The notes beneath the pieces were generated by a model that saw only the letters and a list, made by a program, of their open reading frames with translations, searched no databases and was not told where the DNA came from. The position numbers and the translations under genes were made by a program. From Agelas oroides (Eukaryota; Porifera; Demospongiae; Agelasida; Agelasidae), in NCBI GenBank assembly GCA_949130485.1, contig OX422204.1:3135515-3199514 (forward strand): a DNA stretch of 64,000 nucleotides, read 5' to 3'. Positions 54 to 16,708 of the stretch are shown in pieces. How positions within the stretch are numbered: the first letter of the stretch is position 1; every line of letters begins with the position of its first letter.

Positions 54-2951
54 CTGTTTTCTTGGCCTCTCATCCTCAATTGCTGTTCGAAGCCGAACGC
101 AAGAAGAAGAAGATGATGTGGTTGAGCTTCGAAACCACTTTCCTGATTTCCTCTGGTTACTTCGTGACGTCCACCTTCTGCCAGTTGACGACTGTGGACT
201 AGAAATACCACCAACAAAATACCTCAAGACAAAAGTCCTTGTTCGTAGCAAGCGATTTACTCCAACAAAAAGTGACGATGTTTCACGTGCCATTCTTTCA
301 TTCTTCCCTACAGTTGAATGTATGACTCTGCCACCCCCACACAGTGATCCATCCATGATGCGTGACATTGTCAGCAATGAGCACCTACTTGCGAAAGGAT
401 TCAATGACAAAGTTCACACCTTAGTGCAGTACCTGTTGCAGAAGGTACAACCAAAGAGAGGGTATTTAAAGGGCATGTGTGTTGATGGCATTCTATTTGC
501 TGAAATGGTTACCAAATACATTGAATCCCTCAATGACCCTGACTCCATCCCCTGCCTTGACAACACATGGCAGTCAGTTGTTCGCCAGAGGTGCAGTGCA
601 GTAACAGAAGAGCTCATAGCTGAGTATGATGCTGAGATGTGTTCCAAGATTGCTGTAATTGGGTTACCACTGGAAGAAGAGTATTTTTCAATAGACAACA
701 GTAAAACCACTCTGTTTGGTCTACATCGTACAATTGAGCTGCAAAAAACAGAAGCCCTTTTGAAGCAAGTTAGACACTTTCTTGGTGACCCAACTGCAGC
801 TAACCAAGACACAGTTCTCAGCAAGGAAAGCTTGATAGCCGAGTTTGGGCGAAAACTTGCCATCTTTGAGGAGGAAGAGCAAGTTTATGAAATCCAGGGC
901 AGACAAGCTCGGAAGAAGAAGGTTACTGGTGGTGCCCTTGAGAAGTACGCTAGACAAAATTACGCTGAATCACACACATTTTGCACAAAGCTGTTTTCTG
1001 ATCTTTACCAGCCAGTGGAACAAAGGGCTCTCGATTCTGATGCAAGCTATACATTTGAGAAGCTGCTGAAAGACCTTGGTGGTGTACAATCCCAATACCT
1101 TGAAAAGGCAGTGGGGCCAGCAAAGTGGCAAGTCTATCGTGAGCGTAGTGAGTATGTAAAGTCACAACAGGCCATGTTCAAGAAAATTCGAGGGTTCAAG
1201 GATGAGGCTTTCAAAGCTGCCCAGGAGGCCTCTGAGCAAAGTGCCAAAGCGACTGAACTGTATAACACCGTGTGTGACCTCCAGGCACAAATGAAAGATG
1301 AAGCTGAATTTAGTGCAAAGAAACTTGAGAAGCTCAAAGAACAGCACCAACAGGAAATGGAAAGATGTCGGCAGCAAGACCTTCAAAGAATGGAGGATGA
1401 ACGCAGAAAGTGCGATGACTTTGTAAAGACCCAGATGACTCAAATGGCAGAGCTGACAAAGCAAAACAATGAGCAACTGCAGCAACAGAACAAAGCCTTC
1501 ATGGATGCAATGAAGCAGAACGTGAAGGGAAGTGAAGAGACGATGAAGGTGTTTGCAGACACACTGAAAGTAATGCAAAGGCCTCCTCCACCTCCACCAA
1601 AGAAAGGTAAGATAACAGCTTTATTGGACAATTTCTACATGTATACCACAAGGACTCGATCAGACTTGACAGTATCTTTTTGAATGAGACTACGATAGGT
1701 TGCCAAATTTTACACCACCAGCTCTTCCAGGTACCCCACTACCGCTAGTATCAGCACTTGTACAAAGCTTCCAGTGTTGTTTTAGTATAGGGTTTGTGCT
1801 TTTATTTTAGTTATAGTTTTGGATATGGAAAATACTTTTGGTTTAGTTTAGTTATAGTTCCCGGTTTTACAAAATTTTTAGTTATAGTTTCAATTACTAA
1901 AACTCTGAAACCCCTTACTAAAAGGTATTTAGTTACAGTTATCAGTGAAAAGAGGCTGTTTTCTGTTTTAGTATAGTTATGGTTTCTTCTTGGATGTTAT
2001 TGGTTATTGTTCCCAGTTTAGCAAAAATTTTTAGTTAGTTGTAGTTTTGGTTAACTAAATATTATAAAGGCCATACTAAAATATATTTAGTTAAAGTTAT
2101 AGTTAACTAAAACAACACTGAAAGCTTCCAGTCATTCAGTACTATCTAGCTAGAGACATATCTCATGCACATACAGTATGTGTTTACACATTAATGCATG
2201 CAGTGCCTGTTTGTATAATCTCATAAGTACATGCTTTGCTGGTCATTTAGGTATCTTGGATTATGTGGTGGATATCCTACCAGTTGTTGCACCTGCTATA
2301 GCTGCATCTGGATGTTTCACTGCTGGAACGAAGATCACACTAACAAATGGGAAAGAGATACCCATTGAGAAGCAGGCTGCAGGGCTGAAACTGCTCGCTC
2401 AAGGAGGAGAAACCACCACTATCACAGAAGAGTATGTCGATAATGACCTCCTTCCTGGACAACAGCTCTTTGGCATCAATGACGACGATCCTTTCGCCTC
2501 ACTCAACCACCCTTTCTGGACAACAGAAGGTTGGAAGTGTCTCGATCCAGAAGGAGCAAAGGAAGAGAATCCGAACATCGACTTCAAGCTCCTTCAAGTG
2601 GGTGACATAGTGTTCCACATAGCACAGACCAATCCACTCCTCTATGAGCCTGTCAAGGTGCACAAGTTCACGTTCATGACAGTGACAGAGCCTTCCAAGA
2701 TCTATGGCCTTCACCTTGATGGCCCTCGCTCCTACCATGCCAATGGCTATGTGGTCACTGCCAACTACCCTGTCCTGACAAAGAAGCGAGTTCGTGAGGG
2801 AATGAGGAAGCTCAACGACGACGAGAAGAATAGCCTGAAGACAGGATTGACCTCAGTTCAGAGTGAGCTAACCAAGGTGCTTGGAACCTGGGCCGAGAGT
2901 GCATTCAAAGATATGGAACTGGTCGACCAAGATAAGATCAACGATGACTAA
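54..2951 (+). CDS. GBP-family large GTPase with C-terminal Hint domain (5' end outside window)
   Basis: Two coding exons are visible, 54-1606 and 2251-2951, joined in matching phase (G|GT). The first continues an exon chain from before the window, with acceptor ttgcag at 48-53. The start lies in the late G domain: the segment FPDFLWLLRD aligns with the GBP1 segment holding the guanine-binding TLRD motif, here LLRD. The GBP helical middle domain follows, then a long Gln/Glu/Lys-rich coiled coil and a Pro-rich stretch (RPPPPPPKK). Exon 2 encodes a Hint domain: Cys codon at 2313-2315 in SGCFTAGTK, SLNHPFW with His at 2508-2510, and the late HANGYVV strand. About 60 further residues end at a TAA stop. 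GBPs normally end in a short tail, often CaaX, so the Hint domain replaces it. I infer a self-processing C-terminus; cleavage itself is not shown by sequence. Confidence 0.85.
1772..2120. mobile_element. hAT-like MITE in the GBP-Hint intron
   Basis: The ends are inverted repeats starting CAGTGTTGTTTTAGT. They are flanked by a perfect 8 bp duplication AAAGCTTC (1764-1771 and 2121-2128). CAGTG-type ends with an 8 bp target duplication are the hAT signature. The 349 bp interior is AT-rich with repeated ttagttatagtt-like motifs and has no coding capacity. Confidence 0.85.

Positions 2952-5008: not shown

Positions 5009-16708
<11,700 letters not shown>

Follow-up and report, generated by a model that had tools for sequence, protein, structure and literature searches.

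A guanylate-binding protein gene of the sponge Agelas oroides with two candidate 3' tails that each end in a Hint domain

The window analyzed here is a stretch of 64,000 nucleotides from the demosponge Agelas oroides (G000:C22:3135515-3199514, from an assembly of 259 Mb in 141 contigs), which near its start encodes, on the plus strand, part of a guanylate-binding protein (GBP) joined to a Hint domain. The GBP tail exon (54..1606) covers the latter half of the large GTPase domain together with the helical domain and the coiled coil. It matches the Pfam profiles PF02263 (E 1.2e-9, profile positions 140-259 of 264) and PF02841 (E 2.9e-9), the latter where the GBP helical domain begins, each above its cut-off, as well as GBP1 (6k2d, 4.1e-12) among the PDB sequences, and has the helical middle and effector domain of a GBP. 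The exon begins after an acceptor of phase 2 (CAG, 51-53) and ends at a donor of phase 1 (a G followed by GTAAG, after 1606), directly 5' of which a six-proline linker (1582..1599) follows the coiled coil. A GT..AG intron of 644 bases and phase 1 (1607..2250) leads, through an acceptor (TTTAG, before 2251), to the last exon (2251..2951), which encodes a hydrophobic segment, the Hint domain, a helical tail and the stop. The frame stays open across the 1606/2251 junction up to the TAA at 2949-2951, so the in-phase joining of the two exons, proposed in an earlier sequence-only reading of this DNA, holds. As judged from DNA and protein sequence, the joining of GBP and Hint in one gene model is real, and it is seen again in relatives.

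The P-loop exon lies outside the window, which the sequence-only reading could not see, and a search of the 20 kb that include both plus-strand GBP tails of the contig (C22:3122001-3142000) yielded neither a P-loop nor a DTEG motif. A head exon with an ATG, the P-loop GPCRTGKS and the G3 motif DTEG is located upstream (C22:3118280-3118797) and ends in phase 2. It is followed on the plus strand by two tails, the second being that of the window and the first a tandem copy 6.8 kb upstream of it, with the same two-exon order and the same phases (GBP exon C22:3128782-3130331, Hint exon 3131165-3131820). The head exon joins either tail in phase, both models staying open up to their ends, and the joined head and tail match PF02263 at 7.6e-40 (profile positions 3-259). 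The window tail is therefore probably spliced to this head exon, and alternative last exons appear to be the simplest reading of one head with two tails. Only exons align between the two tails by blastn (81% over 1565 bases for GBP, 95% over 639 bases for Hint, at window 2309-2947), the two introns giving no match at 1e-5. In pairwise comparison, the GBP exons have a dS of 0.65 and a dN/dS of 0.19, and the Hint exons a dS of 0.10 and a dN/dS of 0.35, which suggests that the tails are old and apparently constrained as a pair and that the Hint exon was perhaps exchanged between them later, maybe by gene conversion. A third Hint exon is found on the minus strand (C22:3080446-3081288) and may, tentatively, terminate a minus-strand GBP gene of about 35 kb in total with exons in order from 3115.3 to 3092.2 kb; this gene (L012:3302-2832, L011, L010, L004:9288-8446) sits head-to-head with the first GBP gene. 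The three Hint exons come from one search in which divergent Hint genes are uncounted, and their number is a lower bound.

None of the Pfam and NCBIfam profiles called a Hint domain above cut-off in the window exon, and the match to PF01079 was weak (E 0.0055, under cut-off). Despite this, the predicted fold is clearly that of a Hint domain (AlphaFold pLDDT 88, with PDB fold matches); the profile check suggested by the sequence-only reading was thus negative at the Pfam threshold, and it is the model that identifies the domain. The alignment of a second fold model (A2) covers 30 of 40 GBP relatives and 20 of 76 Hint relatives. The presumed scissile site is preceded by the hydrophobic segment ILDYVVDILPVVAPAIAA (2253..2306), whose best 19-residue Kyte-Doolittle mean is 1.75, versus a best value of 0.96 in the GBP exon, and which is preserved in the relative P0001 (mean 1.61). 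The Hint fold is followed by a predicted tail of four helices (2781..2912; exon residues 177-185, 189-201, 203-210 and 212-220 by DSSP on the model).

Row counts for the active site refer to alignment A1, in which the window is aligned with all Hint relatives but P0063 (75 of 76). The sequence-only reading had placed the nucleophile Cys and the block-B His correctly. The putative nucleophile Cys21 (2313..2315), which follows a Gly, is Cys in all 38 rows that have a letter in this column (the other 38 of 76 have a gap), and the residue before it is G in 26, S in 10, H in 1 and F in 1. In block B (2499..2510), the window has Ser-Leu-Asn-His instead of Thr-x-x-His; the His (2508-2510) is present in 73 of 74 rows. 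Where the Hint fold ends, Asn171 (2763..2765), found in 76/76 rows, lies one residue beyond the intein Asn position, as read from the alignment and from the aligned ranges of PDB fold matches (BIL2 and DnaB inteins). The terminal His-Asn of inteins is absent in register, as had been stated from the sequence alone: residues 169-170 of the window are Thr-Ala, followed by Asn-Tyr, and residue 170 is Ala in 62, Met in 12, Glu in 1 and Ser in 1 of the 76 rows. The residue after Asn171 is Tyr in 75 rows and Asn in one, never Cys, Ser or Thr. Intein splicing was rejected, both the terminal His-Asn and the +1 nucleophile being missing. Asp63 (2439..2441) was aligned, with low confidence, to D303 of Hedgehog by hhalign in global mode, a profile comparison too weak for use (probability 1.1). 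Its column is acidic in 52 of the 61 rows with a letter outside the Met170 group and in 0 of 12 within that group; P0098 has, by eye, a Gln at this position, so an acidic residue there is no rule.

The order of GBP before Hint is not confined to this contig, as the sequence-only reading had proposed to check. The relative P0098 contains GBP and Hint within a single open frame, and 7 of 40 GBP relatives pair with one of 76 Hint relatives on contigs of identical size, the contigs themselves not having been seen; in 5000 jitterings of size, the number of such pairs had a mean of 0.13 and a maximum of 3. Together with the tandem copy, these sequences confirm that the order exceeds chance. In a pattern scan of GTDB genomes, 40 stretches fitted the pattern and none was a relative, and a scan of viral contigs gave a single partial match, at 34% (L013). 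The Hint unit also has relatives, with 42-43% identity, in P0117 and P0118, labelled as from metagenome-assembled genomes of Spirochaetota and Legionella sp., and in the unlabelled P0074. Judging by these labels, the Hint cassette may have crossed domains of life, errors of binning being the alternative.

At least 17 exons match PF02263 genome-wide, and one further locus, on contig C17 (G000:C17:429354-434892), has a single head exon (429354-429901) that precedes two tails and joins them in the same phase as here. One of its last exons ends in ...VVADVLGGVVGAAVPLIASKCSVM (box CSVM) and the other in ...SSGCILQ (box CILQ), both of which we take to be CaaX-type ends. In the first of these, a phase-1 junction links the coiled coil to the last exon, which is also the case for the window Hint exon. 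Moreover, the window segment GILDYVVDILPVVAPAIAASGC is hydrophobic like the C17 end (19-residue means of 1.75 and 1.97) and terminates at the Hint Cys where the C17 paralogue terminates at the CaaX Cys, a likeness of kind, as the letters are not aligned. There is thus good sequence evidence that the Hint exon occupies the gene position of the CaaX lipid-anchor exon of a sister gene. The idea of lipid attachment, raised in the sequence-only reading, gains support because the paralogue ends in CaaX; lipid transfer itself is a testable idea.

The gene shares with vertebrate GBPs (hGBP1/2/5) the GTPase domain with P-loop and DTEG, the helical domain and the coiled coil; according to the part of PMC9005921 that deals with these proteins, they end in CaaX prenylation motifs by which they anchor to membranes, whereas the window protein ends in a Hint domain. 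The same source describes zebrafish Gbp4, which likewise has an extra C-terminal domain on a GBP, there a CARD, here Hint. The statement of the sequence-only reading that GBPs carry either a lipid tail at their end or no tail is thus too narrow, given this CARD and the GBP-fibronectin frames of the sponge itself. The latter are found on contig C19, where GBP tails run in one open frame into fibronectin type III: one frame (L020:6899-1443, minus strand) has 1819 residues and 8 such stretches, and a second (L021:8374-4487, minus strand) has 1296 residues and 5.

Among 5.39 million open-access papers, as opposed to subscription journals and preprints, none was found that names both GBP and a Hint domain, and none of the open-access co-mentions of guanylate-binding protein and intein concerns, by title, such a fusion. 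Fusions of AIG1/GIMAP with Hint are described in the available parts of publications on coral (PMC3723955), snail (PMC7053062) and amphioxus (PMC12373286); these also combine an immune GTPase with a C-terminal Hint and differ in the GTPase family, no Pfam match to AIG1 being found in the joined window model at E <= 0.01. In Hedgehog, the Hint domain is preceded by the Hedge signalling domain, here by GBP domains, and the Hog part has TxxH where the window has SxxH, with a fold match at 12-13% identity. The sterol recognition region of Hedgehog, a helix-loop-helix C-terminal to Hint as given in the pertinent part of PMC7906309, resembles the window helical tail in position only. BIL domains, such as BIL2 of Tetrahymena BUBL1, differ in that the window Hint is without the terminal His-Asn in register. 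The partner of BIL2 is ubiquitin-like, and that of the window Hint is a GTPase. Elsewhere in the window, a tRNA-Thr (AGT) gene (9890-9964) and a second, unassigned tRNA-like call (15676-15763) were detected, both on the minus strand.

The explanation that we favour, and hold with an evenly divided mind, is a GBP gene in which a single head exon encodes the N-terminal half of the GTPase domain and either of two 3' tails would complete it, both tails carrying at their end a Hint domain that cleaves and frees the GBP. Under this explanation, the Hint domain would fold and its Cys, assisted by the block-B His, would attack the preceding Gly-Cys bond through an N-S acyl shift; the thioester would then react with water, a thiol, an alcohol or an amine, setting free a GBP whose new C-terminus may bear a lipid and here would end in the hydrophobic segment, and releasing a fragment of Hint plus helices of about 24 kDa. 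Several observations weigh against it. Among seven long proteins found through the Hint part of P0098, GBP is present in P0098 only (P0118 was not scanned). The first tail lacks the hydrophobic segment and P0098 lacks it in that form, so that anchoring through this segment would not be general. The helical tail is not specific to GBP, as it also occurs in relatives of the P0061-P0069 type with a different N-terminal part (76 rows, no GBP match). In-frame ATGs precede the Cys in the window Hint exon (45 codons) and in the third copy (20, 28 and 46), and the evidence as a whole consists of DNA and protein sequence and a predicted fold. Finally, the block-B Thr is not kept, its position being A in 45, S in 17, T in 11 and F in 2 of 75 rows. 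Among the Hedgehog mutants described in a section of PMC9163320, H329A is inactive, T326A has greatly reduced activity, and D303A cleaves with dithiothreitol and does not complete cholesterol transfer; with Cys and His kept and the Thr replaced by Ser here and by Ala in most rows, the first step is possible and not assured, and active cleavage becomes less sure. Cleavage rather than splicing, as expected by the sequence-only reading, remains sensible, and cleavage is likeliest among the functions considered for the Hint domain.

A doubtful but serious alternative is that the Hint domain is a non-cleaving structural, dimerising or redox-sensing C-terminal module, whose Cys acts without cutting the peptide. 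The frequent Ala in block B and the intein Asn being out of register agree with this, but the Cys and the block-B His are almost invariant, the residue before the Cys is small (Gly or Ser) in 36 of 38 rows, as a scissile bond would favour, and the window hydrophobic segment directly precedes the Cys. The window copy might instead be a partial duplicate without a full GTPase, unused or starting inside the tail, which would agree with the stretch between the two tails having neither a P-loop nor a DTEG exon; the low dN/dS of the GBP exon pair at its considerable dS, the acceptor phase that matches the upstream head exon, and the repetition of the one-head, two-tail arrangement on C17 make it improbable. 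A BIL-like Hint, cutting at both ends and conjugating the GBP to the amine of a partner, is slightly more improbable again. Conjugation of this kind, by BIL domains and ubiquitin, has been proposed for ciliates, and a literature search for it found no such paper. Here, however, Asn171 is displaced by one residue with no His before it and is followed by Tyr or Asn instead of Cys, Ser or Thr; its cyclisation, being out of register with BIL2 and the DnaB inteins, was rejected and survives only inside this alternative. The in-frame ATGs, three of them in the third copy, would also permit a separate Hint gene adjoining the GBP gene, which we regard as very improbable, since the tandem copy has no ATG before the Cys, P0098 is one frame, GBP and Hint recur on equal-sized contigs, and the window acceptor site and phase fit. 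For the tandem copy, the missing ATG and P0098 rule it out, and for the window copy alone the case is built on phase and on the parallels with the tandem copy and P0098.

Beyond the cleaving-Hint explanation, a more specific and on the whole unlikely scenario would be that an early-animal GBP lineage swapped its CaaX exon for a Hint exon, that the Gly thioester is handed on to a lipid or sterol of the membrane while the helical tail binds the acceptor, and that a lipidated GBP is thus made without a separate transferase, with the alternative tails serving as different anchors. GBPs act on pathogens and membranes, and their route to the membrane decides much of this action, for hGBP1/2/5 through CaaX according to the corresponding part of PMC9005921. 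A GBP with a Hint exon in the place of CaaX would have another way to a modified C-terminus, one that bypasses the prenyl transferases, and would carry the Hint chemistry of Hedgehog into cell-autonomous defence. The AIG1-Hint proteins published for coral, snail and amphioxus, as far as the accessible parts of these papers describe them, suggest that Hint has joined immune GTPases more than once, and such repeated joining makes the effect of Hint on an immune GTPase testable in one protein.
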